From Opitutus sp. GAS368 (GTDB lineage: Bacteria > Verrucomicrobiota > Verrucomicrobiia > Opitutales > Opitutaceae), in contig CAMBUJ010000014.1 of the NCBI GenBank assembly GCA_945871005.1, positions 1 through 35,793 on the forward strand: a stretch of DNA of 35,793 bases. Reading direction: 5' to 3'. Of the stretch, positions 2,114-25,815 are shown piece after piece. Under the pieces are notes generated by a model that was not told the DNA's origin, did no database searches, and saw only the letters and a program-made list of their open reading frames with translations. Numbering within the stretch: the first letter of the stretch is position 1; each line of letters begins with the position of its first letter. A program made the position numbers and the translations under genes.

Positions 2114-3637
2114 ATGAGATTCGGCCTCGCCTGTATTCGCGCCGCCGCCGCTGGACCGGAGTTGCCGGCCACGACGGCCAGCAGCAAGCAAGCGGCACCG
2201 CGGCGCTGGCCAATCGGGCTGCTGGGAGTGCCCTTTGAAAACATCACCCAGCAGGAGGCCGTCGACCGGATCGAGGCGATGATCGCCAGCGGCCGCCCCC
2301 ATTACGTGGTCACGGCCAACGTGGACTTTCTGGTGCAGGCGCGGCGCGATGTGGAATTGCGCCGGATCTTGCTGGCGGCCGATTTGGTGTTGTGCGACGG
2401 CACGCCCTTGCTGTGGGCCTCGCGCTGGCTCGGCAACCCCCTGCCAGAGCGAGTGGCCGGTTCGGATGTAACCCCGCGCATCATTGCCGCAGCGGCGCGC
2501 AAGGGTCAGCGGCTGTTCCTGCTGGGGGCTCAACCCGGCGTTGCGGCCGCGGCGGCCGCCCGCCTGCAGCACCAACATCCCCACTTGGTGATCGCCGGCC
2601 ATTACTCGCCGCCCTTCGGCAAGCTCCTGGATATGGATTTCGGGGAAATTGCTGCGCGGGTGGGCGCGGCCCGCCCGGACCTTCTGCTGGTTTCTTTTGG
2701 GTGCCCCAAGCAGGAGAAATGGATGGCCAAACACTACCACCAACTCGGGGTTCCGGTGCTGATTGGGGTGGGCGCCACCCTTGATTTTATCGCAGGTCGG
2801 GTCAAACGGGCCCCCGCCCTGATGCAGCGGACGGGCACTGAATGCGTTTATCGGCTGGCCCAGGAACCGCGGCGCCTGTTTGGCCGGTACGCGGGAGATC
2901 TCATCCATTTTGTGCCCGCGATTGCACGCCAATGCCTTTACCTGCGCGGGCGGCGGCAGCAGGCGGCCCCACTGGAGCTCATCGCGTCGCCCCAAGCGGC
3001 GTCTTGGCAGGAAGTGTGGCTCCAAGGCGACTTAAGTGCCCCCGAGTTAAACCGCATGGCAGGGGCGGTTGAGGCCGCCCTCGGGGTCGCCGCGCATTGC
3101 CGGCTCGACCTTTCGGGAGTGCGCTTCCTCGACAGTACGGGCGCGGCCCTGCTGGTGCAGTGGCACCGCCGCCTGCACGAGCAGGGCAAACAGCTCCGCA
3201 TTCTCAACCCCAGTGCCGCTGTGCAGGGAACCCTCCAAGTGCTGCAACTCAGCGTTTTTTTTAACCTCACCGCGCACGCCGACTGGGGCACGCCCGCTTT
3301 AGCTGGCGAAACACCCACCGAGGCGGTGATTCCGCCCTACCCTGGCGGCCACACCCTGGCCTGGCAGGGTGAAATCACCACCACCAACGCGGAAGCGGTC
3401 TGGACCCTGAGCGTGCGCTACCTAAACGCAGGCGGTGCGCCCCCCCGCAACACCCACTTGATTAACATCGCCCGGGTTCAGTTCATCGACAGTGCCGGCG
3501 CCGAGTTGATGGGGCGATTGCAGCGTTGGGCCGGCAACCAGGGCCAGCGACTACGCTTTATCGGCCCCCGCCCCGACGTGCGCAACGTCTTGGAAATGGC
3601 CGGACTGGCCCGGTTGTTAAATGGCGCCCCAAGCTAG
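2114..3637 (+). CDS. WecG/TagA/CpsF glycosyltransferase fused to two STAS domains
   Basis: Residues about 33-265 are a WecG/TagA/CpsF (GT26) glycosyltransferase, a family that adds a second sugar (often ManNAc-type) to an undecaprenyl-linked glycan at the inner face of the membrane. Motifs seen are 'VTANVDFLVQA' (T67), 'LCDGTPLLW' (D95), 'RVAGSD', 'FGCPKQEKWM', 'GVGATLDFIAG' and the C-terminal 'YRLAQEPRRLFGRY' segment. The T67/D95 spacing of 28 equals the T37/D65 catalytic pair of the characterised Thermoanaerobacter TagA. Residues about 298-385 and 412-505 are two STAS-like domains with cores 'LDLSGVRFLDSTGAALL' and 'INIARVQFIDSAGAELM'. Family members are normally about 240-260 residues, so the tail doubles the length. 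It sits 60 bp ahead of two two-component pairs and upstream of polysaccharide export genes. The fusion is in one uninterrupted frame. Confidence 0.9.
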   Translation: MRFGLACIRAAAAGPELPATTASSKQAAPRRWPIGLLGVPFENITQQEAVDRIEAMIASGRPHYVVTANVDFLVQARRDVELRRILLAADLVLCDGTPLLWASRWLGNPLPERVAGSDVTPRIIAAAARKGQRLFLLGAQPGVAAAAAARLQHQHPHLVIAGHYSPPFGKLLDMDFGEIAARVGAARPDLLLVSFGCPKQEKWMAKHYHQLGVPVLIGVGATLDFIAGRVKRAPALMQRTGTECVYRLAQEPRRLFGRYAGDLIHFVPAIARQCLYLRGRRQQAAPLELIASPQAASWQEVWLQGDLSAPELNRMAGAVEAALGVAAHCRLDLSGVRFLDSTGAALLVQWHRRLHEQGKQLRILNPSAAVQGTLQVLQLSVFFNLTAHADWGTPALAGETPTEAVIPPYPGGHTLAWQGEITTTNAEAVWTLSVRYLNAGGAPPRNTHLINIARVQFIDSAGAELMGRLQRWAGNQGQRLRFIGPRPDVRNVLEMAGLARLLNGAPS

Positions 3638-3697: not shown

Positions 3698-4810
3698 ATG
3701 CCCTCCGCACCTCCCACGCGCATCCACATCCTCATGCTCGAGGATGATCCCGCGCACGCCGAACTCGCCCGGCGGGCCCTGATCGATGCCGGAATTTCAG
3801 TCCTGATCATCCGGGTGGAAACCCGCGCCGATTTCCAGCGCCAGTTGAGCGAATCCACCCCCGACCTCATTCTTTCGGATTACAGCTTGCCGACCTTCGA
3901 CGGCCTGGAGGCGCTCCGGCTCGTGCAGGTCAGCGCACCGGACATTCCGTTTATTTTCGTGACCGGCACGATGGGTGAGGAGGTCGCCATCGAGACGCTG
4001 AAAACCGGGGCAACCGACTATGTTCTAAAAAAACACCTGGCCCGGCTCGGCACCTCGGTGCGGCGCGCGTTGCGCGAAGCCTCTGAACGCCGCGAGCGTC
4101 ATGAAGCCGAACAAAAACTCCTTCAATCCAACGAACAACTGCGCGCACTCAGCGCGCACCTTCAGCAGGTGCGCGAGGACGAGCGCATTCGCATCGCGCG
4201 CCAGGTGCACGATGAGCTGGGCCAGGCCCTCACCGGGCTGAAGTTGGACCTCTCCTGGCTGGTCAACGACCTGGTCAAAACCAACCCGGCACTCAGTCAA
4301 AAGGTGCAGGCCCTGACCGAGCGCATCGACGCGACCATCCAAACGGTGCGCCAAATCAGCACCGAGCTACGCCCGGGGGTACTCGACAATCTGGGCCTGG
4401 TCGCGGCCATCGAGTGGCAAGCCCATGATTTCCAGCTGCGCACCGGGGTGCGTTGTACCACCACCAACATGGTGGACGAGGTGATGTGGGGGGAGGATTT
4501 CTCCACCACCTTTTTTCGGATTTTCCAGGAAACGCTCACCAACATCATCCGCCATGCCGAAGCCAGCGCCGTCGAGGTGGTCATGGCCGTCGATGCCGGA
4601 CGTTTCGTGCTGATCGTGCGCGACAACGGCAAGGGCATCACCGCTGCAGCCATCGCCAGCACCAAATCAATCGGCCTGGTGGGCATCCGGGAACGCGCCG
4701 CCTTGCTCGGCGGGCTCGCGGTTTTTTCCGGCGGGCCTGGGTTGGGAACCATTGTCACCGTCAGCATTCCGCTCAGCTCGGCCGAACCCCTCGGGGATAA
4801 AACACCATGA
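3698..4810 (+). CDS. Cytoplasmic REC-HisKA_3 hybrid histidine kinase (NarX/DesK-type)
   Basis: An N-terminal receiver domain (about 9-125) has an acidic pocket 'LEDD', phospho-acceptor D61 in 'LILSDYSLP', T89 and a lysine in 'YVLKK'. A coiled segment (about 125-160) follows, then a HisKA_3 dimerisation/phosphoacceptor helix with H171 in 'ARQVHDELGQ' and a HATPase_c domain ('FQETLTNIIRHAEA', 'VRDNGKGI', 'SIGLVGIRERA'). There is no membrane segment or PAS/HAMP input, so the receiver itself is probably the input and the kinase takes its signal from another phosphorelay. The stop overlaps the start of the LuxR-family regulator (ATGA), making that regulator the likely partner. The 370-residue length fits the domain count. 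Confidence 0.92.
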   Translation: MPSAPPTRIHILMLEDDPAHAELARRALIDAGISVLIIRVETRADFQRQLSESTPDLILSDYSLPTFDGLEALRLVQVSAPDIPFIFVTGTMGEEVAIETLKTGATDYVLKKHLARLGTSVRRALREASERRERHEAEQKLLQSNEQLRALSAHLQQVREDERIRIARQVHDELGQALTGLKLDLSWLVNDLVKTNPALSQKVQALTERIDATIQTVRQISTELRPGVLDNLGLVAAIEWQAHDFQLRTGVRCTTTNMVDEVMWGEDFSTTFFRIFQETLTNIIRHAEASAVEVVMAVDAGRFVLIVRDNGKGITAAAIASTKSIGLVGIRERAALLGGLAVFSGGPGLGTIVTVSIPLSSAEPLGDKTP

Positions 4811-5436
4811 GAATCCTGATCGCCGATGATCACGCCGTGGTGCGGCAAGGCCTTAAGCAAATCCTCGCGGCCGAGTTCAAGCAGGCCGTTTTCGGTGAGG
4901 CGAGTACGGGCCAGCAGGCCATCGAGCTGGCCTGGCGTGAACTTTGGGACGTGCTGGTGCTCGACATCACCATGCCCGGGCAAAACGGCCTGGATGTGCT
5001 CAAGGCGATCAGGAAATCGCGGCCACGCCTGCCGGTTTTGGTACTGAGCATGCACCCGGAGGATCAGTTCGCGGTGCGTCTGTTGAAAATCGGCGCGGCG
5101 GGCTACATGACCAAAGAGAGCGCTCCGGCCGAGTTGGTGGGCGCGGTGAAAAAGGTCCTCAACGGCGGCCGCTACGTCAGTTCCGCCTTGGCCGAAAAAA
5201 TGGCCGTCTTTCTCGCCATGGACGTGCAGACCGCTCCCCACGAGCGCCTTTCGGACCGGGAGTTCGTCGTGCTCCGCCTGATCGCCTCGGGCAAAACCGT
5301 CAGTGAGATCGCGGTGGAACTGTCGTTGAGCGTCAAGACGGTCAGCACCTACCGCACGCGCATTTTGGAGAAAATGGGGATGCGCCACAGCGCCGAATTA
5401 ACCCACTACGCGATTCAAAACCAGTTGGTGAAGTGA
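4807..5436 (+). CDS. NarL/FixJ-family response regulator
   Basis: A DNA-binding two-component response regulator of 209 residues. The receiver domain covers about 1-120 with acidic pair 'ADDH', phospho-acceptor D53 ('LVLDITMPGQNG'), S81 and K103 ('YMTKES'). A LuxR-type helix-turn-helix covers about 148-205 ('LSDREFVVLRLIASGKTVSEI', 'LSVKTVSTYRTRILEKM'). It overlaps the upstream HisKA_3 kinase gene by four bases, the usual translationally coupled arrangement for a cognate pair. The targets are not visible here; the polysaccharide genes downstream are the obvious candidates, which is inference. Confidence 0.95.
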   Translation: MRILIADDHAVVRQGLKQILAAEFKQAVFGEASTGQQAIELAWRELWDVLVLDITMPGQNGLDVLKAIRKSRPRLPVLVLSMHPEDQFAVRLLKIGAAGYMTKESAPAELVGAVKKVLNGGRYVSSALAEKMAVFLAMDVQTAPHERLSDREFVVLRLIASGKTVSEIAVELSLSVKTVSTYRTRILEKMGMRHSAELTHYAIQNQLVK

Positions 5437-7407: not shown

Positions 7408-10341
7408 ATGCACGACCACCCCGAATCCCTCCGCCCGCGCCCCTTGTCCGCCTCCGCCGCTGCCGAGCCACCCATTGCTGGCACGCCGTTCGACTTCACC
7501 CCCCTGGCTGGTGCGGTTTTTCTGCGTTGGCGGCAACTGCTGGTGGCCGGCCTGCTTTGCGGGCTAACCGCGGGGCTCGCGGCGTGGGCGTTTTTCCGCC
7601 CCAGCTACGCCGCTGCCGTGCAGCTGAGTCGTTACGAGTCGCCGCTTTCAACCGATGACTACCACCCCCAGACCTATGATACCGGGATGCTTTTGGGGTT
7701 AATCTCGGCCCCCGACACCTTGCAAAAGTCTCGGGCCAGCGCCGCCCCGTCACTCGCGGGCGGCCCGCTGCCCGGTCGACTCGTTCTTACCATGGACCGG
7801 AATAGCACCTTGATCACGGTAACGGCCTCCAGCCCGACCCCGGCCGAAGCGGTGACCCTGGCCAACCTCATCGGCGAGCAGTCCGTCAAATTCACGCAAA
7901 CGCTCCAGCAAAGCGAGGCCCAGGAGGCGACCGCGCAGCTCGAACGGCAACTGGCGGACAACGAGGCAGACCGAATTCAGATTCGCCAGCGGCTTGCGTT
8001 GATTGAAAACCAGCGGGCGCAGGCCGAATTGGCGCCCATGCCCTCGCAAGCCAGTGCCGATAACCCGGCCGTCCAGCCCCTGCCCCAGCCGCGGATCACC
8101 CGCCTGTACGACCGGGTGCAGGCGGCGCGCGACCAACTCGATGAGCTCCAAACGCGCTTCACCGAAGCCCATCCGCTGGTCCGAGAACAAAAGATCCGCC
8201 TAGCGGGGCTAACCGCCCAGTTGCCCAACGCCTCGCCTACGCTAACCAACCCAGGCTCGACCGAGTCCACCGCCCTCACTGGGGCGCTGCGCGCGGGCGC
8301 CACCTCCGCCCAACTCAGTTCGGGCTACGAGGCGTTGGCGATGACCCTCGGGGTGCTGGAGAATCGGCACACCGCGCTGGTTAATCGCCAGCGCTCCATT
8401 CACCCCTTCCTGCAAACGCCCCCAGGTTCCCTTCGCCTGCTTGCTCCCGCCAACCTGGGCAACGTGACCCCAAATCACTCGGCCCCCTTGATCGCAGCCC
8501 TTTCTCTGCTTGGTGGGCTCGTCGGCGTCATCGCCCTGGGGTGCTTCATTGCCCTGCGCGAACTCCTCGACGACCGCATCAAGACCGGCACCGATTTGGC
8601 CCGGATCACCGGCCTGCCACTGTTGGGCACGGTGACCGATCTCGACGAGCTGACGCCGGCGGACAAAGCCCATTGGGCGCTGCGCAGTTGGACTGCGCTG
8701 CGTGGCCAACTCAGCATTACCCCGGGGCAAGGGGTGGTGTGCGGGTTCACCTCGGCCAGCGGAGGCGAAGGACGCTCCACCTGGATCGAACTGCTGGCCG
8801 GTTCAGCCCGGCAGTGCGGACTCAATGTGCTGATTGTTTCGGCCGACACGGCGACGGGGATCGTCACCGAAATCAACACCCCAGCGAAAACGGGGGGAAG
8901 TCTGGCCGGGCCGAGTTGGGGTTCGCCGGAATACACCGCCATGGTCGTGGCCAACCCAGCTCGGTTGGTGGAATCGGGAAGCCTGGCCCAGGGTTGGCCG
9001 GCTGACAGCCTCCCCTTGCCGCGCGAATGGATCTGGGACTTGGAGCGGCGCAACCAGTGGCAACGCGCCCTGCACACCTGGCGCAACGAGGACAACCTGG
9101 TTGTATTCGTGGACCTACCTGCGATGACCTCGCCGGAAACCCTGCTGTTGGTCGAAAAAATGCCCAATCTGGTCTGGCTCGCCGAAAGCCACAAAAGCGA
9201 GGCCGGCGAAACCATCGAGCATCTTGAAAACCTGCGCCACGCCCGCTGCCACCTGGTCGGGACGGTTCTCAACCGCACCCCCACTGCCGCACGCAAACCC
9301 CGGTTTGCCCGCTGGGTTGGTCGTCGATCGCTCCTGCTCGCAACCGCCTTCGGTCTGGCTGGGGCGCCAGCTTCAGCGCAACCGTCGGCATCGGGCGAGC
9401 CCGCCGGCTTAAAACCGGTGCCCCAGACTGCCGCCTTCGCCGTGCTCGACACCACTCCCCGAGCCCCCTGGCAACAGCGCTTCACCCTCGGGCCGGGTGA
9501 CCAGCTCCAAGTTAATGTGTTCGGACAGGCTGAACCCACCGCCACCTCCCTGCTGATCGGGCCCGACGGCCGAGTCAGTTACCTCGAGGCCCAAAACCTC
9601 ATGGCCGCCGGTTTAACCGTGGACGAACTCCGCTCGGAGTTAAACCGTGAGCTCGGCAAATTCCGCAACAGCCCTGAAATTGTTGTCCGTCCCGCCGCTT
9701 ATCGCAGCAAACGCTACTACGTACTCGGGGCGGTGGTAAAAAAGGGCGCCTTTCCCCTGAACCGCCCGCTCACGATCATCGAAGCAGTTGCCCAGGCCCA
9801 GGGGCTGGAAACGCGAGTGATTGACCGCAGTCTCGTCATGCAGGCCGACTTGCCGAACAGTTTCATCTCCCGTCAGGGCCGACACCTTCCAGTCGATTTC
9901 AAGAAGCTCTTCACTGAGGGCGATCTGAGCCAAAACGTCGGGATCGAGCCCGACGATTACCTTTACTTTCCGTCCTCCGAGCGGGTGCAAATTTACGTGC
10001 TGGGCGAAGTGCGTTTCCCCGGCGGCTTAATCTCCGCAGGGCGCACCGGCACGTTGGAAGCCATCGCCATTCGCGGGGGGTTCTCGGAGCGGGCCTGGCC
10101 CAAACGCCTGTTGGTCATCCGAGGCTCCCTCAAAAGTCCGCAAACTTTTATCGTCAACGCCAACGACATCCTTGCCGCCAAAAGCCCCGACTTCCAACTG
10201 CAACCCAAGGACATCGTTTATGTCGGCAGTCGCCCCTGGTATAAGGCCGAAGAGCTGCTCGACCTCGCCGCGACCGCCTTCGTCCAATCGGCCGTGGTCA
10301 CCAAGACCGGCCTGAGTGTCACCCCGATTGGAACCCGGTAA
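7408..10341 (+). CDS. Fusion: Wzz-type co-polymerase + degenerate BY-kinase-like domain + OPX (Wza-like) exporter
   Basis: A single 977-residue frame. Residues 44-62 are TM1, 65-355 a periplasmic Wzz-like region with coiled coil (about 165-205 and 230-270), and 359-383 TM2. Residues about 425-625 are a cytosolic P-loop domain like the kinase part of bacterial tyrosine autokinases. Its Walker A is 'SASGGEGRST', with Arg where Lys is expected. A Walker A'-like 'IVSADTATG' and B-like 'VVFVDLPAM' follow, and no tyrosine cluster is seen. Residues 631-657 look like a signal peptide: basic 'PRFARWVGRR', hydrophobic 'SLLLATAFGLAGA', then 'ASA' before Q658. Residues about 690-977 are an OPX protein ('FTLGPGDQLQVNVFG', poly-export plus two SLBB-like units). 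The nearest upstream in-frame Met to the signal-like segment is M585, so a separate ATG-started OPX is not evident. It probably controls chain length and export of a surface polysaccharide. Confidence 0.88.
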   Translation: MHDHPESLRPRPLSASAAAEPPIAGTPFDFTPLAGAVFLRWRQLLVAGLLCGLTAGLAAWAFFRPSYAAAVQLSRYESPLSTDDYHPQTYDTGMLLGLISAPDTLQKSRASAAPSLAGGPLPGRLVLTMDRNSTLITVTASSPTPAEAVTLANLIGEQSVKFTQTLQQSEAQEATAQLERQLADNEADRIQIRQRLALIENQRAQAELAPMPSQASADNPAVQPLPQPRITRLYDRVQAARDQLDELQTRFTEAHPLVREQKIRLAGLTAQLPNASPTLTNPGSTESTALTGALRAGATSAQLSSGYEALAMTLGVLENRHTALVNRQRSIHPFLQTPPGSLRLLAPANLGNVTPNHSAPLIAALSLLGGLVGVIALGCFIALRELLDDRIKTGTDLARITGLPLLGTVTDLDELTPADKAHWALRSWTALRGQLSITPGQGVVCGFTSASGGEGRSTWIELLAGSARQCGLNVLIVSADTATGIVTEINTPAKTGGSLAGPSWGSPEYTAMVVANPARLVESGSLAQGWPADSLPLPREWIWDLERRNQWQRALHTWRNEDNLVVFVDLPAMTSPETLLLVEKMPNLVWLAESHKSEAGETIEHLENLRHARCHLVGTVLNRTPTAARKPRFARWVGRRSLLLATAFGLAGAPASAQPSASGEPAGLKPVPQTAAFAVLDTTPRAPWQQRFTLGPGDQLQVNVFGQAEPTATSLLIGPDGRVSYLEAQNLMAAGLTVDELRSELNRELGKFRNSPEIVVRPAAYRSKRYYVLGAVVKKGAFPLNRPLTIIEAVAQAQGLETRVIDRSLVMQADLPNSFISRQGRHLPVDFKKLFTEGDLSQNVGIEPDDYLYFPSSERVQIYVLGEVRFPGGLISAGRTGTLEAIAIRGGFSERAWPKRLLVIRGSLKSPQTFIVNANDILAAKSPDFQLQPKDIVYVGSRPWYKAEELLDLAATAFVQSAVVTKTGLSVTPIGTR

Positions 10342-10528: not shown

Positions 10529-11722
10529 ATGAAACCACTCTGCCTCTCTGTGTCATCCAATTGCCGGCCCAATCTAGGCCTCCTTTCGCCAAGCCCGACT
10601 AGGGCAGCGGGCGTCCGCTTACCCCGGTGGCTCCGCTTGCTGCGAGACGCCGCGCAAATCGGGTCTGGGCGCGGTGGCACCGGCTTGCTCCTGCTACTGG
10701 TTCTGGCGGGCTGCGCCAGCCCTCCCAAGCCCAGACCGGCCCCGGTCAGCGCGAACCTCGTCAGTGCCCCCGCCTCACCCCGCCTGGACGCGCAACTTCT
10801 CCAAATCCCTCCGGATGCCTTCACACTCGGCCCGGGCGATCGGCTGGAGATCGAATTTATCGGCGACACCACCAGCCGCAGCAGTTGCGAGGTCGGACCC
10901 GACGGAAAGATCTATTTTAATCTCCTCCCCGGAATTGATGTGTGGGGCCTCACTTTGGCGCAGACGAAAAGCCTGATCACGACCCGATCCACCCAGTTCA
11001 TGAGGGAAACGCCCAATGTCGCCATCAACCTACTCGAAGTGGCCAGCAAGCGGGTCTGGGTGCTCGGCAGTGTCAACCAACCTGGGATCTACCCGATGTT
11101 CGGACCGACGACCTTGCTGGCGGCCTTAGCCGAAGCAGGAGGGCCGACCACCGCCGAGGAGGGCAATAACCCCATGGCCTCGCGCAGTGTGTCGGCCGAT
11201 CTGCGCCGCAGTTTTGTGCTTCGGCGCGGCGAAATCTTGCCCGTGGATTTGGAGCGCTTGGTCCTCCATGGCGATGTTTCCCAAAATATCTACCTGCGTC
11301 CAGGGGACTTCGTCTACTTGCCCGCAGCGACGGCGCAGACCGTGCATGTGCTGGGAGCGGTCGGTCTACCTGGGGCGGTCTATTCGGGTGATGGCATCAC
11401 GCTGATCCAGACCATTGCCAGCGCCGGCGGGACCATCAAGGACGCCTATTCGAGCCACGTCGCCATCGTCCGCGGCTCACTCACGCAGCCGACCATTTCC
11501 ATTGTGGACTACAAAGCCATGCTCAAGGGCACCGCTCCGGACGTGGTGCTGGAACCCCACGACATCGTCTACATTCCCTACACCCCCTACCGGACACTCG
11601 GGCGCTACATGGACCTGATCCTGCGCACCTTTGTCCAGACGGTGGGCGTGAACGAAGGCGCGCATGCGGTTGATTCCAATGCCGGCTCGGTCGGCGTCAA
11701 CGTCCAGGTCAATCCACGCTAG
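10529..11722 (+). CDS. OPX/Wza-like polysaccharide export lipoprotein
   Basis: An outer-membrane channel protein for polysaccharide export. 'GLLLLLVLAGC' with Cys62 is a lipobox, so the mature protein is a lipoprotein. Residues about 98-170 form the poly-export domain ('FTLGPGDRLEIEFIG', 'VGPDGKIYFNLL'), followed by two SLBB-like units ('VWVLGSVNQPGIYPMF', 'VHVLGAVGLPGAVYSG') and a C-terminal amphipathic helix ('MDLILRTFVQTVGV'). It is a clear paralogue of the C-terminal third of the preceding fusion (compare 'GDVSQNIYLRPGDFVYLP' with 'GDLSQNVGIEPDDYLYFP'). The 50-residue stretch before the hydrophobic core is long for a lipoprotein signal, so the true start may be an internal TTG (for example near 10637). 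The gap to the previous gene is 187 bp. Confidence 0.92.
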   Translation: MKPLCLSVSSNCRPNLGLLSPSPTRAAGVRLPRWLRLLRDAAQIGSGRGGTGLLLLLVLAGCASPPKPRPAPVSANLVSAPASPRLDAQLLQIPPDAFTLGPGDRLEIEFIGDTTSRSSCEVGPDGKIYFNLLPGIDVWGLTLAQTKSLITTRSTQFMRETPNVAINLLEVASKRVWVLGSVNQPGIYPMFGPTTLLAALAEAGGPTTAEEGNNPMASRSVSADLRRSFVLRRGEILPVDLERLVLHGDVSQNIYLRPGDFVYLPAATAQTVHVLGAVGLPGAVYSGDGITLIQTIASAGGTIKDAYSSHVAIVRGSLTQPTISIVDYKAMLKGTAPDVVLEPHDIVYIPYTPYRTLGRYMDLILRTFVQTVGVNEGAHAVDSNAGSVGVNVQVNPR

Positions 11723-13234: not shown

Positions 13235-16200
13235 ATGAATCCCTTCATACGCCTCCCGAGGTTGCTCGCCCTAGCCGCCTCTTTTGTCCTCTCAGTTGGT
13301 TTCGCCGCCAGCGCCACCGCCCAACCCACCGTTAACGTCGTAGCCACCGATGCGTTCGCCACCATCGGGACCACCGATTACGCGACGCTTTCCTTCACTC
13401 GCACCGGGTCCACCGCTTCAGCGTTAACCGTCAACTACGCCCTCGGCGGAACGGCGATCAAATGGAATGACTACTGCCGCATCCAGGGCGACATGCCCGT
13501 GGCGGTGACGATCCCGGCCGGAGCCGCGTCCACCACCATGACGATTGTCGCCCGGGCCAATACGACCGGGGCCAATCCGGCAACGGCCACCTTCACCCTT
13601 TCGGCCAGTTCCAGCTACCGGATTGGCGCCCAAAAAACCGCCCTCCTCACGCTACTGGCAACCAGTTCACCTCCACCGACCCTTCCCGTGGTCACGCTCA
13701 GCGCGACTGACGCCACTGCGGTGATCGGCACCACCGACACCGGAAAGATTACCGTCACCCGAACCGGCGCCACCACGGCGGCGCTAACCGTCAACTATGT
13801 ACTCAGCGGCACGGCCGTCCCCGTAACGGACTACCGCCTGCCCGGCGGGACCATGCCGGTCTCGGTCACCCTCCCTGTTGGCGCCAGCTCGACCACCCTG
13901 ACGATCCAAGCGGTCGCCAACAGCACCAACGCCAACCCGGAAACGGCCCGTTTCACCCTCGCTGCGAATTCCGCTTACACCCTCGGCACCGCCACCGCGG
14001 CCACAATCACGATCACCGCGGTTGCCTCCACCCCGCCGCCTCCCACCGGTCTGCCGGTCGTCACCGTGACCGCGACCGACGCCATCGCAGTGATCGGCAC
14101 GACCGATTACGCGGTACTCACCTTCGCGCGCACCGGAGCCACCACGAATGCGTTGACGGTTAACTACGCCCTCGGCGGCACCGCCATTAAATGGAACGAC
14201 TACTGCCGCATCCAAGGCGACATGCCCGTGGCCGTGACGATCCCCGCCGGGGCCGCCACCACCACCATGACCCTGATCGCGCGCGCCAACACCACCAACG
14301 CGAACCCGGAAACGGCCACCTTCACTCTGTCGGCCAATTCCGCCTACTCCGTGGGCACCCCGGCCACCGCGACCATCACCCTGCTCGCCACCGCCCCAGC
14401 CCCGACGCCCACCCCCACGCCGACTCCGCCCACGGTGACGGTCGTCGCCTCGGATGCCTCCGCCGCCATCGGCAGCGTGGACACCGCCGCATTCACCTTC
14501 ACCCGCACCGGCGCCACCACCAGTGCGTTAACGGTTAACTATACCCTCGGCGGCACCGCCGTGGCGTTGACCGATTACCGTCTCGTCTCCGGCACCATGC
14601 CGGTCTCCGTGACGATTCCCGCCGGCGCCGCCTCGGCCACCCTGACGATCCAGGCCCTCGCCAACAGCACCAACGCCAACCCGGAAACGATCGTCCTCTC
14701 CCTCGCCGCCAACGCCGCCTACACCCTAGGCAGCGCCAGCAGCGCCACTGCGACCATCGCCCAGGTAACACCCCCTCCGACGCCCGCCCCGACTCCGCCC
14801 ACGGTGACGGTCGTCGCCTCGGATGCCTCCGCCGCCATCGGCAGCGTGGACACCGCCGCGTTCACCTTCACCCGCACCGGGGACACCACCACCGCGTTGA
14901 CGGTTAACTACACCCTCGGCGGCACCGCCGTGGCGTTGACCGATTACCGTCTCGTCTCCGGCACCATGCCGGTCTCGGTGACGATCCCCGCTGGCGCCGC
15001 CTCGGCCACCCTGACGATTCAGGCCCTGGCCAACAGCACCAACGCCAACCCGGAAACGATCGTACTCACCCTCGCGGCCAACGCCGAATACACCTTGGGC
15101 AGCGCCAGCAGCGCCACCGCCACCATCGCCCAGGTGACCCCAACCCCGACTCCGACGCCCACCCCGACCCCGACGCCGGTGCCGCCCCCCGTCGTGCTAA
15201 ACGAATTGGATTACACCGGTCTGATCATGCCCAAGGTGGGGGACAACGCCCTGCGTGTACTCGCCCCCTCCTGGCTCGAGTTGCGCAAACTCACCTCCAA
15301 GGCGCCCGACCCGGCCACCGTCACGACTTGGAATTTCGTTAACTCCTCCGGCGTGCTCTCCGCCCCCGCAACCTCGCAGTTCACGGTCACCGTCGACGGC
15401 AAAACCGTTTCAGTCCTGTCCGTGGGCTTTAAGCGCCGCGCCTTCTCCGCCGACCTGGATGTGCGCGACCTGCGCATCGACAACGCGCTCTACCTCCAGC
15501 TGGCCTCGCCGGTCGCCGAAGGCCAGACCGTCGTCGTCACCAACCCCAGCGCCCAGCTCTGGCCCGCCACCGATAAATACTCGGTGACCACCGATCCGCT
15601 GCGCTACAGTCCGGCGATCCACGTTAATCAGGAGGGTTACGTACCTACCCTCCCCAAGAAAGCCATGGTGGGTTACTACCTGGGCAACCTTGGCGAGCTG
15701 CCGGCCACCGGCTTGACGAGTTTCACCATAAAAAACGCCACGACTGGGGCGACCGCCTACCAAGGCACGCTGACCGCCCGCCGCGATGTCGGTTACACCT
15801 ATTCGCCGCTGCCCTATCAGAATGTGCTGCAAGCCGATTTCAGCGCGCTGACCACGCCCGGCGAATATTACCTACTGGTACCCGGCCTCGGTGCCTCGCT
15901 GCCGTTCCTCATCGATGACGGCATCGCCATGAACTGGCTGCGCACCTACTCGCTCGGTCTTTATCATCAACGCTGCGGCAAATCCAACGCCCTGCCCTTC
16001 ACCCGCTTCACCCACGAGGCCTGTCACGTGGCCAAAGCCGAAGTGCCTTCGCCGCAGTCCTCCTACGCCTTCACCTGGACGACGATCGCCTCGAAGAGCG
16101 CGCCCAGTGCCCACCAAACCGCCCCTCAGCTCGCCAGCGAAGCCTCCCAGCTCTACCCCTTCGTCAACAAGGGCACGATCGACGTCTCAGGCGGTCACCA

Positions 16201-18229
16201 TGACGCCGGCGATTACAGCAAGTACACCACCGACGTGGCCTCCCTCGTGCACATCCTGATGTTCACCGCCGACAACATGCCCTCCGGCAACCTCGACAAC
16301 CTCGGTATCCCCGAGAGCGGCGACGGCATCAGCGACATCATGCAGGAGGCCAAACAGGAGTCCGACTTCTTGGCTAAACTCCAGGACGCCGACGGTGGGT
16401 TCTACTTCATCGTCTACCCCAAGACGCGTGAATACGAAGGCGGGCTCTCCGGTGCCGCTCCGGGCGACACCCAGGTGGTTTGGCCGAAAAACACCTCGGC
16501 TACCGCCGCCTGCGTCGGCGCCCTGGCCCAATGCGCTTCCTCGCCGAAGTTCAAGCAGGCCTATCCGGCCACGGCCGCTGCGTATCTGCAAAAAGCCCAG
16601 CTCGGCTGGACCTTCCTCACCAACGCCATCGCCAAATACGGCCTGACCGGTTCCTACCAGAAGATCACCTTCTACGGGGACGAATTCGCCCACATGGACG
16701 AGTTATCCTGGGCTGCTTGTGAGCTGTATCTGGCCACCGGTGACGTGAAATATCAGCAGCAGCTCTTCGCCTGGTTCCCCAACCCCAACGATTACGCGAC
16801 CTATCGCTGGAGCTGGATCCGCATGGCCGAGTCCTATGGTAACGCCATCCGCAGCTACGCCTTCGCCGCCCGCTCGGGCCGCCTGGCTGCCAGCCAGCTC
16901 GACTCCGCCTACCTCGCCAAGTGCAACACCGAGATCATCGGCGCCGCCGACAAGGAACTCCTGTCCTCCACCCAAAGCGCCTACGGCTCCGCCTTCGCCG
17001 CCGAGAACAAAGCCTACCGGGCGGCCGGCTGGTATTTCTCGATGGATCAAGCCGCCGACATGGCGGTCGCCTACCAGATCAACCCCAAGCCCGAATACCT
17101 CGATGCGCTCGTGAGCAACTTGAACTATGAGGGCGGCACCAATCCGGTGAACGCCACCTGCGTGACCGGCCTCGGCCTCAAACGCCAGCACACCGTGGTC
17201 AACCAGTTCGCCCGCGCCGACGCCCGCCAGCTGGCCCCCACCGGCATCCCCATCGGCAACATCCAGGGCGGCTTCGACTACCTCGCGCTCTACGCCAACG
17301 AACTGAGCAGCCTGACGTTCCCCTCCGACGGGGCCACCTCAGCGCCCTATCCGTTCTACGACCGCTGGTCCGACACCTGGAACGTTTCCACCGAGTTCAT
17401 CACCGTGAACCAGGCCCGCAGCGTCCTGTCGGCCAGCGCGCTAGTCGGTCAAACCACCGCCAAGAACACCCCATGGACCTCGGGCACCGCCGTCATTGCC
17501 GTGCCCACCGGGATCGTGCCCCTGGCCGTACCCACCACCCTGAGCGTCTCGACGCCTGGGATGGACCTGAACACCGCCCGCATCGTCTGGGAAGGCCGCG
17601 ACCAGCAGCCCGCCTTCGGCCCCACCTATGCCTTCGTTCCCAAGAACAACGGCACCCAGTGGGTCGAGGTGGAGATCAACTGGCCGGACGGCCGCCGCGT
17701 CTTCGGCTCGGCCAGCTTCACCGCCAACAGCGCGGTGGTGAACTGGGTCAATGGGGCCCTGCCCGCCGGGGCGGTGGCGAGTGCCGACGGCGGCGACGCC
17801 TGGACCTGGGTGACCAGCAACCCCGCGCCCTACTCCGCCCCGGCGGTGCACCAGAGCACCGTGGCGGCCGGGATCCATGGGCATGGCTTTGAGTCCGCGA
17901 CAGCCACCTTGTTGGTCGGCACCACCGACAAGCTGTTTGCCTACGTCTACCTCGATCCCGCAAATCCCCCGTCCACGGTCATGCTGATGTGGACCGACAG
18001 CACCGGCAACAGCGCCCACCGCGCCTACTGGGGTGCGAACCTAATACCGTGGGGCACTAACGGCACCGCCAGCCAGTTCCCGATGGGAGCACTGCCTGCG
18101 CTCGGCCAATGGGTGCGACTGGAAGTACCCGCCAGTTCGGTCGGACTGGCCGGCGCCACCGTTCAGGGCATGCGCTTCACCCTCTACGGCGGGCGCGCCA
18201 GTTGGGACGTGAGCGGTAAGTCCAACTAA
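13235..18229 (+). CDS. Secreted multidomain glycoside hydrolase family 9 enzyme with five Calx-beta-like repeats
   Basis: A 1664-residue exported endoglucanase-type enzyme. The signal peptide covers 1-29 (hydrophobic core, 'ASATA' then Q). Five Calx-beta-like modules cover about 31-143, 150-266, 273-389, 400-515 and 523-634, separated by Pro/Thr-rich linkers. A beta-rich module (about 650-785) and a CelD_N-type Ig module ('IHVNQEGY', about 790-890) follow. The GH9 catalytic domain has 'GGHHDAGDYSKY' (D990, and D993 as predicted base), 'GLGLKRQHT' (H1319) and 'DTWNVSTEFITVNQ' (E1387 as predicted acid). After about 1430 there is an Ig-like module and a C-terminal galactose-binding-like module. 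GH9 enzymes hydrolyse beta-1,4-glucans (cellulose, sometimes xyloglucan or chitosan). No dockerin or sorting tag is visible. It ends just before a strong terminator. Confidence 0.93.
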   Translation: MNPFIRLPRLLALAASFVLSVGFAASATAQPTVNVVATDAFATIGTTDYATLSFTRTGSTASALTVNYALGGTAIKWNDYCRIQGDMPVAVTIPAGAASTTMTIVARANTTGANPATATFTLSASSSYRIGAQKTALLTLLATSSPPPTLPVVTLSATDATAVIGTTDTGKITVTRTGATTAALTVNYVLSGTAVPVTDYRLPGGTMPVSVTLPVGASSTTLTIQAVANSTNANPETARFTLAANSAYTLGTATAATITITAVASTPPPPTGLPVVTVTATDAIAVIGTTDYAVLTFARTGATTNALTVNYALGGTAIKWNDYCRIQGDMPVAVTIPAGAATTTMTLIARANTTNANPETATFTLSANSAYSVGTPATATITLLATAPAPTPTPTPTPPTVTVVASDASAAIGSVDTAAFTFTRTGATTSALTVNYTLGGTAVALTDYRLVSGTMPVSVTIPAGAASATLTIQALANSTNANPETIVLSLAANAAYTLGSASSATATIAQVTPPPTPAPTPPTVTVVASDASAAIGSVDTAAFTFTRTGDTTTALTVNYTLGGTAVALTDYRLVSGTMPVSVTIPAGAASATLTIQALANSTNANPETIVLTLAANAEYTLGSASSATATIAQVTPTPTPTPTPTPTPVPPPVVLNELDYTGLIMPKVGDNALRVLAPSWLELRKLTSKAPDPATVTTWNFVNSSGVLSAPATSQFTVTVDGKTVSVLSVGFKRRAFSADLDVRDLRIDNALYLQLASPVAEGQTVVVTNPSAQLWPATDKYSVTTDPLRYSPAIHVNQEGYVPTLPKKAMVGYYLGNLGELPATGLTSFTIKNATTGATAYQGTLTARRDVGYTYSPLPYQNVLQADFSALTTPGEYYLLVPGLGASLPFLIDDGIAMNWLRTYSLGLYHQRCGKSNALPFTRFTHEACHVAKAEVPSPQSSYAFTWTTIASKSAPSAHQTAPQLASEASQLYPFVNKGTIDVSGGHHDAGDYSKYTTDVASLVHILMFTADNMPSGNLDNLGIPESGDGISDIMQEAKQESDFLAKLQDADGGFYFIVYPKTREYEGGLSGAAPGDTQVVWPKNTSATAACVGALAQCASSPKFKQAYPATAAAYLQKAQLGWTFLTNAIAKYGLTGSYQKITFYGDEFAHMDELSWAACELYLATGDVKYQQQLFAWFPNPNDYATYRWSWIRMAESYGNAIRSYAFAARSGRLAASQLDSAYLAKCNTEIIGAADKELLSSTQSAYGSAFAAENKAYRAAGWYFSMDQAADMAVAYQINPKPEYLDALVSNLNYEGGTNPVNATCVTGLGLKRQHTVVNQFARADARQLAPTGIPIGNIQGGFDYLALYANELSSLTFPSDGATSAPYPFYDRWSDTWNVSTEFITVNQARSVLSASALVGQTTAKNTPWTSGTAVIAVPTGIVPLAVPTTLSVSTPGMDLNTARIVWEGRDQQPAFGPTYAFVPKNNGTQWVEVEINWPDGRRVFGSASFTANSAVVNWVNGALPAGAVASADGGDAWTWVTSNPAPYSAPAVHQSTVAAGIHGHGFESATATLLVGTTDKLFAYVYLDPANPPSTVMLMWTDSTGNSAHRAYWGANLIPWGTNGTASQFPMGALPALGQWVRLEVPASSVGLAGATVQGMRFTLYGGRASWDVSGKSN
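14431..15139 (+). repeat. Near-identical tandem 369-bp Calx-beta coding repeats
   Basis: Two copies of a 123-codon unit begin at 14431 and 14800 and are almost identical at nucleotide level, including synonymous positions. Earlier modules at about 13328 and 14052 form a second, more diverged pair sharing 'KWNDYCRIQGDMPVAVTIPAGA'. This implies recent duplication or gene conversion inside the GH9 gene. Confidence 0.85.
15139..15192 (+). repeat. Pro/Thr linker low-complexity repeat
   Basis: About 54 bp of imperfect (ccgacncc)n-type sequence encode a Thr-Pro linker between the last Calx-beta module and the rest of the GH9 protein. Shorter versions occur at about 14398-14430 and 14769-14799. Confidence 0.75.
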
Positions 18230-23454: not shown

Positions 23455-23628
23455 GTTGGGAATGAGCGGATACGGTTCGGTAAGTTGGGAGGGTTAAAGC
23501 GGACCTGAAAGCGAAAAGTGGGCCAAATCAGCTAAAACCTTGCACGAAACCCGAACGGTTTACCCGTTCGCCCACCTTGGCTCTGAGCTTGCTTGCGACC
23601 AAACGGACCGCCTTATTTGCCAGCCACC
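23455..23628. promoter_or_regulatory. Divergent region between ppc and the LptD-like gene
   Basis: A 174-bp region that must carry promoters for both directions. It contains a perfect 7-bp hairpin (cgaacgg / ccgttcg, 23552-23558 and 23564-23570) that may be an operator or leader stem. No clear -35/-10 is assigned. Confidence 0.4.
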
Positions 23629-25815
23629 GTGACCAGACGCCTACTCCCCGTCCTTTTTCTTATCAGCGCCAGCCTCCTGCGTGGAGCCGCGAGCCTGCCG
23701 CAAATCACCGCCAGCCACACCGACATCACCGATGCCGGAACCGTGTTCACCGGCAAAGCCCGCCTCGACTACGATGGCGCGGTCTTACTCGCCGACCGGA
23801 TTGCCTACGATCCAAAAACCCAGATCGCCCGCGCCTCCGGTCACGTCTCCTTTACTCGCGGCCCGCAGACCGTCGTCCCCTCCCGTGCCTCCAATCCGCG
23901 CGACCGGGCCAAAAAACCCCTCGCCCAAACTACGCCGCAGCGCCTCCTTGCCGACGAACTCACTTACAACCTGAGCGAGCGCACCTACACGGTGAAAAAC
24001 GTCCGCCTCGGTCAGGACCCCATTTACATCAGTGGGAGCAGCGTCGAGGGTGGCCCCGACAAAATCGTCATCCGTGACGCCGTCGTGAGTTTGTCTGAAC
24101 CCAGTTCGATCTCCCCGGCGTTGAAGGCATCCACGGTTACTTATATACCGGGCGACCAAATCCAGGCGAAAAGCGCACGCATCGGCATTGGCGGCACCCC
24201 GCTCATTCCGATGTCGGCGTTCAACCAATCGGTCAACGACCCGCTGCTCAGCCACATGAAAGCCCGCGTCGGCTACGGCTCGCGCCTAGGCGGAGAACTC
24301 GAATTGGGTCTGCTCGCCCCCATTACCCGAACCTTTAAGCTCGGTGGCGAACTCGACCTTTACACCAACCGCGGCGTCATGTTCGGCCCGGCCGCCGCCT
24401 ACGAACTGGACAACGCCAACACCACCCTGAAGGGATCCCTGCGCAGCGGTTTCATCAACGACAGCGGCAAGCGCGGCAAAGACATCCTCCGAAATCCCAT
24501 CCAAGCCAACCGCGAGTTCGTCGAATGGGAACATTACCAGACGCTCGGCGAAAACGTCACCCTGCTCGGTCAAGTCAACTACTGGTCGGACTCAGAGGTC
24601 ACCCGCGACTTCCGCCCCAAGGAGTTCGAGCTCAACCAGACGCCTGACAACTTTCTCGAAAGCTACTACACGGGAGACAACTACGTCGTCTCGGCCTTCA
24701 CCCGCTTTCAGCCCAACGACTACCATTTGGTGCAGCGCCGCCTGCCGGAATTTCGCTTCGACGGCTTACCGGTCGACGCCGGTGCCGGTATCTACCACCG
24801 CGTCAACGCCAGCCTGGCCGTACTCGAAGACACCTCGCTGAAAACGACGAGCAGTCCGGTTGACCAAGTCAACCGCGTCGACACTTACTACGGGCTGACC
24901 CGCCCGTTCACCCCGAACGAATGGTTCTCGATCAAGCCGGTGGCCGGCACCCGTTTCACCTACTACGACCGGGCCCAAGCCCCGCGCAGTGACTACGCCC
25001 GCGGCCTCGCCGAGGTCGGCTTCGACGCCGATGTCCAGGCCAGCTCCACCTACGCCTACAAAAACGAGCGCTGGGACATCGACGGGCTGCGCCATTTGGT
25101 CAAACCCTACGTCTCCTACCGCGCCATCGGTAACGCCGACCAAGGCTCCAACACCGCCATCCCCGCGATCGACCGCACCACTTTCGCCACCGGGCTGCAA
25201 CCGCTCGGCCTGGCCGACCGCCGCGACATCGACACCCTGGGCAAGACTAACACCCTGCGCCTCGGGGTAAACAACGCCCTGCAAACGCGCGACCGTCACT
25301 ACGCCTCACGCAACCTCGCTGAGCTCGATGTGGCCGGAGACTGGCGCTTCGACCGCACCACCGGCCAAGACAGCCTTTCGGCGATCCAGAGCCAGCTCAC
25401 CCTGACTCCCGCCAAGTGGTTCAGCTACGATGTCTACGCCAACGCCTCGCCCAACGACCTCACCATTGAGGAAATCAACACCGGCGTGACCTTCAAGGAC
25501 GCCGGTGTCTGGTCGGTGCGCGTCGGAACCAACGTACTCGAATCCAACCCGCAGGATTCCGCCACCCTCACCAACACCCAGGGCGGCATTGGTGAGTACA
25601 CCCTCGATGCGCACTACTTCATCAACGAGGTTTACGAGGCCATCTTGCGCCTGCGCTACGACGAGCTCGGCGGTCGCTTTACCTACAAGGGCATCACCCT
25701 GCGCCAGAACATCCGCAACCTCTGGTTCATCAACTACGCGCTCGCCTTCAGCGAAGGCGACTCACGTTCCGGCAGCACCAGCATCAAGGTCAGCGTCGAA
25801 CTGGCCAATTTCTAA
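23629..25815 (+). CDS. LptD/OstA-like LPS-assembly outer-membrane protein
   Basis: LptD with LptE forms the outer-membrane translocon that inserts LPS in the outer leaflet. The protein starts at GTG 23629 ('TRRLLPVLFLISASLLRGAAS' as signal peptide); an in-frame TTG at 23593 would add 12 residues before the signal. An OstA/LptA-like beta-jellyroll N-domain follows ('TVFTGKARLDYDGAVLLADRIAYD', 'LLADELTYNLSERTYTVKNV'). A long beta-barrel region then has alternating aromatic strands, including 'EWFSIKPVAGTRFTYYD' and 'HLVKPYVSYRAIGNADQ'. It ends in Phe ('VSVELANF'), the usual outer-membrane barrel C-terminus. No cysteine is present, unlike the disulfide-linked E. coli LptD. The 728-residue length is in family range. 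A generic OstA-like barrel is the alternative. Confidence 0.8.
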   Translation: MTRRLLPVLFLISASLLRGAASLPQITASHTDITDAGTVFTGKARLDYDGAVLLADRIAYDPKTQIARASGHVSFTRGPQTVVPSRASNPRDRAKKPLAQTTPQRLLADELTYNLSERTYTVKNVRLGQDPIYISGSSVEGGPDKIVIRDAVVSLSEPSSISPALKASTVTYIPGDQIQAKSARIGIGGTPLIPMSAFNQSVNDPLLSHMKARVGYGSRLGGELELGLLAPITRTFKLGGELDLYTNRGVMFGPAAAYELDNANTTLKGSLRSGFINDSGKRGKDILRNPIQANREFVEWEHYQTLGENVTLLGQVNYWSDSEVTRDFRPKEFELNQTPDNFLESYYTGDNYVVSAFTRFQPNDYHLVQRRLPEFRFDGLPVDAGAGIYHRVNASLAVLEDTSLKTTSSPVDQVNRVDTYYGLTRPFTPNEWFSIKPVAGTRFTYYDRAQAPRSDYARGLAEVGFDADVQASSTYAYKNERWDIDGLRHLVKPYVSYRAIGNADQGSNTAIPAIDRTTFATGLQPLGLADRRDIDTLGKTNTLRLGVNNALQTRDRHYASRNLAELDVAGDWRFDRTTGQDSLSAIQSQLTLTPAKWFSYDVYANASPNDLTIEEINTGVTFKDAGVWSVRVGTNVLESNPQDSATLTNTQGGIGEYTLDAHYFINEVYEAILRLRYDELGGRFTYKGITLRQNIRNLWFINYALAFSEGDSRSGSTSIKVSVELANF

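Follow-up and report, generated by a model that had tools for sequence, protein, structure and literature searches.

A single open reading frame of 977 codons on the + strand (7408-10341) of the 35,793-nucleotide stretch of Opitutus sp. GAS368 DNA analysed here (contig CAMBUJ010000014.1 of assembly GCA_945871005.1, hereafter the window) encodes a protein which, judged from its profiles and modelled fold, is a Wzc-like polysaccharide co-polymerase (PCP) with a kinase-like domain, joined to a Wza-like outer-membrane polysaccharide export protein (OPX), the latter half being referred to as OPX1. The fusion is real and conserved, as 21 intact fused frames were found in 20 genomes, the window's included, which makes it neither chance nor an assembly error. 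The two halves are separated by an internal segment resembling a type I signal peptide, and we consider it probable (at roughly 0.6), from the features of the sequence, that Sec would re-export the OPX half and that signal peptidase I would cut the chain after A657, giving PCP and OPX1 in a 1:1 ratio.

In the PCP part, which comes first, two transmembrane helices, TM1 (residues 42-62, 7531-7593) and TM2 (residues 359-387, 8482-8568), both placed by hydrophobicity and by helices of an AlphaFold model, enclose a periplasmic domain with a long helical arm (residues 63-358, 7594-8481), assigned from the model helices and from Foldseek matches to Wzc, WzzE and KpsE. They are followed by a cytoplasmic domain resembling bacterial tyrosine (BY) kinases, probably a pseudokinase (residues 388-625, 8569-9282), which can be aligned to Wzc paralogues with hhalign up to residue 481 and is modelled with low confidence, and then by the signal-peptide-like segment RFARWVGRRSLLLATAFGLAGAPASA (residues 632-657, 9301-9378), with a predicted signal peptidase I site between A657 and Q658 (9376-9381) placed at an ASA-Q box. 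The signal-like segment of the OPX is thus found inside the fused chain and not at its N-terminus. OPX1 itself contains a Poly_export domain (residues 689-761, 9472-9690; PF02563, E 5.1e-15), two SLBB domains (residues 768-853 and 862-906, 9709-10125; PF22461 and PF10531) and a C-terminal helix (approximately residues 945-970, 10240-10317), which according to the model of OPX1 and its alignment to Wza is located close to where Wza has its own C-terminal helix.

The Poly_export and SLBB domains score above the Pfam gathering cut-offs, while for the N-terminal half PCP-type NCBIfam matches are weak and below cut-off, and no Pfam Wzz or kinase match was found in the 977-residue protein up to an E-value of 1. 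Comparison of the window protein by hhalign with seven Wzc-type kinases of related genomes covered 392 columns at a probability of 99.0, and profile matches of the PCP part in the PDB include Wzc (E 7.5e-9) and PslE (E 4.9e-8). The full-length AlphaFold model, obtained from 13 fused homologues, has a mean pLDDT of 60.4 and a pTM of 0.30, with arm helices (145-206 and 300-336) mostly above a pLDDT of 80 and loops (209-227 and 276-303) below 50. In Foldseek searches this one model matched Wza (2w8h_A, E 5.5e-18) as well as Wzc from the Wza-Wzc complex (9r68_I, E 5.4e-12, 587 columns), and the model, hhalign and Foldseek agree on the layout of a PCP-2a protein, i.e., two transmembrane helices around a periplasmic helical domain, followed by a P-loop-type domain. 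A separate model of residues 658-977, obtained from 40 sequences, has a mean pLDDT of 83.7 and Wza as its best Foldseek match (9r64_A, E 4.2e-22). It ends in a helix of about 26 residues (288-313 of 320), and the profile alignment of OPX1 to Wza reaches profile position 949; the C-terminal helix, a feature of OPX class 1, is near its expected place in the model, with Pfam Wza_C unmatched and amphipathicity weak. Pfam, profile and Foldseek results thereby bear out the claim of the initial annotation, made from the sequence alone, that a Wzz-like N-terminal part and an OPX C-terminal part are present in one polypeptide, and the basic stretch, hydrophobic core and ASA before Q658 that it described are indeed found there.

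In total, 23 genomes hold a fused joint and 24 joints are known, since G759 has two intact fused frames. G012 and G850 (each across two contigs) and G721 (a contig-edge fragment) were counted as fused by their joint and not as intact, G713 (stop within OPX1), G717 and G819 (both cut by contig ends) were left unclassed, and G050 and G044, with weak OPX matches of about 28% identity in separate frames, were not counted. Seven weaker phylum-level matches (G391, G474, G549, G563, G573, G623 and G658) were placed outside the classification, their OPX frames of 339-403 codons being too short for a fusion. At E <= 1e-40, a homologue was found in 27 of the 252 genomes of the family, 20 of them fused, 4 with two genes (G333, G788, G860 and G862) and 3 unclassed; in the order and phylum samples, which overlap with the other sets, 21 of 372 and 16 of 387 genomes matched. 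Fused forms also occur beyond the family in G090, G126 and G545, each from another family, so that the intact frames span four families, and identity to the window protein ranges from 35 to 71% across 13 aligned fused proteins. An Opitutaceae contig from a metagenome-assembled genome is 84% identical over residues 596-977. The initial annotation had proposed a search for the same domain order in other genomes and had named two results that would speak against it, a stop or frameshift at the joint and homologues consistently encoded as two genes. The same order was found; the joint is free of stops and frameshifts in all 21 intact fused frames, the window's included; and two-gene forms were seen in 16 genomes, versus the 23 with a fused joint, and are separated from the fused group by the OPX1 tree, hence homologues are not consistently encoded by two genes.

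Within the genus the locus is patchy, being found in 6 of 13 genomes (G000-G012) at E <= 1e-40. The two fused loci of G759 (L117 and L118) are diverged and each has its own OPX2, the separate OPX described below; this assembly is of 9.1 Mb with 5% contamination, and a mixed bin is possible. In G721 (L129 1-50) an in-frame TAG is located near the contig edge, just upstream of the fused joint, and in G713 (L131 8283-9241) the OPX1 frame is broken, both of which may be due to real decay or to assembly error.

A separate OPX1 gene was found in 16 relatives, with a PCP gene just upstream in 15 of them (in G088 the contig ends first) and with the gene order PCP-OPX1-OPX2, the same as in the fused loci. 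The upstream PCP frames are open over 657-1032 codons, except for that of G788 (429 codons, cut by the contig start). All OPX1 starts in the unfused pairs are candidates; in 9 of the 13 measured pairs the candidate ATG and the PCP stop lie in a 4-base overlap, and in the other four the nearest candidate starts lie between -1 and +5. Because separate OPX1 proteins mostly open with a signal-peptide-like segment, many of these ending in A-Q or A-E, the internal segment noted by the initial annotation, which occupies the same position in the fused protein, is most likely the former N-terminal signal of OPX1 retained within the chain. In an OPX1 tree rooted with OPX2, the 24 fused rows are found on one side of a single branch (support 95/89), which is present in 98% of 200 bootstrap trees. 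The PCP tree, which took 13 of the 15 known unfused PCPs, contains one group of 22 fused rows (99/98) with G545 apart, meaning that the fused rows need two changes, and one group made up of the 13 unfused rows. One or two fusion origins are possible, the second being an independent fusion in G545, and the direction of change may have been either fusion or fission, both being compatible with the trees.

OPX2 (10529-11722, + strand) is a separate Wza-like protein with Pfam Poly_export and SLBB matches and a lipobox, LAGC (at about 10703-10714). Each of the 40 loci examined (24 fused, 16 unfused) has it after OPX1, and in all 40 a lipobox-like Cys precedes the domain, 32 of these having been found by pattern and 8 by eye, with that of G545 being the weakest. 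Since no lipobox was found at the OPX1 joint of the window, OPX2 appears to be the lipoprotein of the pair, and OPX1, fused to the PCP, the partner without a lipid anchor.

The kinase-like domain is probably a pseudokinase, because it lacks both the Walker A Lys and a Tyr cluster. Its degenerate Walker A motif GGEGRST (residues 452-458, 8761-8781) aligns with GEGKS of true Wzc-type paralogues, E454-G455-R456-S457 falling on EGKS in the profile alignment, and Lys is replaced by Arg (GR[ST]) in 22 of the 23 pieces holding this region, with no recognisable motif in G545. Several of the true paralogues end in a Tyr-rich tail (YYY), and by inspection no Tyr cluster was found at the end of the kinase-like domain of the window, where the chain continues into the signal segment; nor was a clear P-loop seen in nine unfused PCPs inspected. 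The earlier description of the domain as BY-kinase-like therefore has to be corrected to a probable pseudokinase. A precedent for a PCP-2 with a pseudokinase is EcpK, which works with EpsV (PMC12004946). The Arg in place of Lys and the missing Tyr tail suggest that assembly of the PCP is not driven by phosphorylation cycles. In Escherichia coli, the Walker A variant K540M of Wzc is reported to yield stable assemblies, both as a Wzc octamer and as a Wza-Wzc complex measuring about 360 A; of the wild-type protein, only little Wzc came down with Wza (PMC12881504). By analogy with K540M, Arg456 may favour a standing assembly.

In the mechanism that we propose, TM1 and TM2 would insert as in Wzc and the pseudokinase would fold in the cytosol, after which the internal signal segment would direct the OPX half through Sec. 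A cut by signal peptidase I after A657 would let mature OPX1 begin at Q658, and the former signal peptide would stay attached to the pseudokinase, adding a third membrane anchor to it. PCP and OPX1 would in this way come from one translation product, next to each other and always in a 1:1 ratio, in keeping with the octamer-on-octamer build of Wza-Wzc, and the lipoprotein-like OPX2 would be the outer-membrane-anchored partner.

The segment of the window has a basic n-region, a short hydrophobic core and small residues at -3 and -1, as type I signal peptides do, and its R635 and W636 are invariant in all 13 aligned fused proteins. A strict box, in which position -3 is a small residue, -1 is A and +1 is Q, E or D, located 19-30 residues after the basic anchor, is present in 21 of the 24 joints, versus 1 of 16 for TM1 (same distance range; with this pattern TM1 was located in only 16 proteins, the window's not being among them) and 4 of 19 for TM2 (range 19-36). 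Among unfused OPX1 proteins 14 of 16 have the box, here allowed anywhere in the 75 residues before the domain, which is looser than the test of the joints. As a membrane helix the joint core scores poorly (dG19 mean 4.3, range 0.19-8.46, n=24), the values for TM2 being -1.8 to 2.8 (n=19); TM1 of G794 was misplaced in this hydrophobicity scan (dG19 16.9). The genome also encodes a signal peptidase I homologue (Peptidase_S26, E 1.8e-27).

Several points weigh against the proposed mechanism. The strict box is missing in three joints (G035, G375 and G545), its +1 condition and distance range were chosen after the sequences had been viewed, and a looser box that leaves +1 free turns up in TM1 of most proteins too and is for that reason uninformative, which is why the stricter one was used. 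Some boxes of unfused OPX1 proteins (G043 and G125) are located away from the end of the hydrophobic core, and unfused OPX1 segments have dG19 values of -0.7 to 6.3, overlapping both the joints and TM2, so hydrophobicity does not decide between signal and anchor; some joints are themselves hydrophobic (G126 at 0.19 and G850 at 1.51). The quality of the full-length model is low through much of 449-684, i.e., the kinase-like domain and the joint, the 27 residues between the predicted site and RAxWQ in the window could reach far if the chain is uncut, and 11 of 23 joints use GTG for the conserved AVLNR Val, which precedes the RW region by 14 residues.

The most direct alternative is that the chain stays uncut, residues 632-657 forming a third transmembrane helix from which the polypeptide runs from the cytosol to the periplasm and tethers an OPX1 ring to the PCP, perhaps with an OPX2 ring above. 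We regard such a bridge as rather unlikely. In its favour, the segment could act as an N-in anchor, some homologues have a more hydrophobic core, the OPX2 found in every locus could be the outer-membrane partner, and a fixed 1:1 ratio would fit Wza-Wzc, which is an octamer on an octamer (PMC12881504). It is the linkers, together with the resemblance of the segment to the signal of unfused OPX1, that argue for cleavage instead. The distance from the predicted site to RAxWQ is 13 residues in G823, 14 in G850 and up to 50 in G004, while G545, which has no RAxWQ, has about 4 residues before its GPGD region; the modelled arm helix of the window's PCP measures 62 residues, or about 90 A, and the linkers of G545, G823 and G850 would be too short beside it should OPX1, like Wza on Wzc, dock at the tip of the arm. 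Linkers varying from about 4 to about 50 residues next to a 62-residue arm thus fit a cut linker better than a tether. Were the chain uncut, an inner-membrane-tethered OPX1 octamer under a lipidated OPX2 octamer might constitute a permanent trans-envelope channel without a phosphorylation cycle, a prospect that we consider doubtful.

The remaining explanations concern the origin of the joined frame or of its products. A small indel at an overlapping stop and start could have joined the two frames by accident, the product being cut like any signal peptide and co-translation being the only consequence, and the 4-base candidate overlap in most unfused pairs means that one such indel could be sufficient; one intact frame has been kept in 20 genomes of four families, with R635-W636 unchanged, and this makes a purely passive joining improbable in our view. 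Translation of the OPX half from an additional start codon within the gene appears considerably less probable still. In its favour are the GTG at the AVLNR Val, the ATG or GTG codons found nearby in other relatives and the frequent 4-base overlap of the unfused pair, against which no in-frame ATG, GTG or TTG occurs between residues 585 and 671 of the window, and six of the 23 joints checked (G545, the 24th, could not be placed) have none of these codons in the n-region. Only one candidate start among the 23 joints, that of G182, is preceded by a Shine-Dalgarno-like box, and as GTG makes up 0.19-0.53 of the Val codons in these frames, its presence in 11 of 23 only modestly exceeds the number expected from codon use. 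An internal start is accordingly rejected for the window, and is possible for relatives with GTG at the AVLNR Val. Finally, the window comes from a draft genome of 305 contigs, in which a missed stop or frameshift might have produced the joined frame; the same frame is shared by independent genomes, e.g., G182 (one contig, 42% identity) and G002 (three contigs, 71%), and with this many intact frames a sequencing artefact is rejected as having almost no likelihood.

Other genes of the window, all on the + strand, were searched for by tblastn in 22 fused regions, which differ in length and are in some cases cut by contig ends. A glycosyltransferase of the WecG/TagA/CpsF type, carrying two STAS stretches towards its C-terminus (2114-3637; Pfam), has a match in 11 of them, and in some relatives this match spans 480-500 residues, the glycosyltransferase-STAS combination thus seeming recurrent. 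A response-regulator/histidine-kinase protein and a LuxR-type regulator (3698-5436; Pfam) are found as a pair in 17 of the 22, and a GH9 family protein of 1664 residues (13235-18229; Pfam), which might act on the exported polymer, in 14, often partially. In 10 unfused regions, the regulator pair and the GH9 protein were not found (0 each) and the WecG-type protein was found in 5. Wzy-like genes (6 matches, 5 above cut-off) and Wzx-like genes (2) are located on other contigs of the genome. An LptD-like protein (23593-25815, Pfam E 1e-9) is also present in the window, with a TTG start in the frame list.

Both halves of the fused protein match the E. coli Wza-Wzc system (PDB 9r64 and 9r68; PMC12881504) by profile and fold, and the two proteins are 1:1 partners there; that system differs in having two genes, signal peptidase II processing of Wza and an active Wzc with a Tyr tail, as opposed to one gene, a type I-like internal signal and a probable pseudokinase. 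EpsV and EcpK of Myxococcus xanthus likewise combine a PCP with a kinase-like domain without catalytic motifs, although EcpK is separate from the PCP, whereas here PCP, pseudokinase and OPX belong to one chain (PMC12004946). OPX1 has the Poly_export and SLBB domains of OPX classes 1-3 (PMC9603273) and of the D1D2 and D1D2D2 OPX proteins with a beta-barrel partner (PMC9601211), and type I signals have been reported for about 30% of class 3 OPX proteins (PMC9603273); in the portions of these two papers considered here, no fused PCP is described. A PCP-OPX fusion was not reported in the titles and abstracts of the literature searched, exact phrases included, a search that extended neither to subscription papers nor to domain-architecture databases, and the architecture may already be listed in the latter.

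The FbcH cytochrome b/c1 polyprotein of Bradyrhizobium is encoded by one gene, and two envelope proteins arise from it by a cut at an internal signal peptide; that protein belongs to a respiratory complex, unlike the fused protein described here, which belongs to polysaccharide export. To our knowledge, bacteria offer few cases of one translation product being divided at an internal signal peptide into an inner-membrane protein and a periplasmic or outer-membrane protein, and the fused gene may be one of them. As a natural fusion it provides evolutionary evidence that PCP and OPX1 are close partners present in matched numbers, and it identifies the partner of the PCP among the two tandem OPX proteins. 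With its probable pseudokinase, it is also a system in which it can be asked whether polymer export needs phosphorylation-driven assembly and disassembly.

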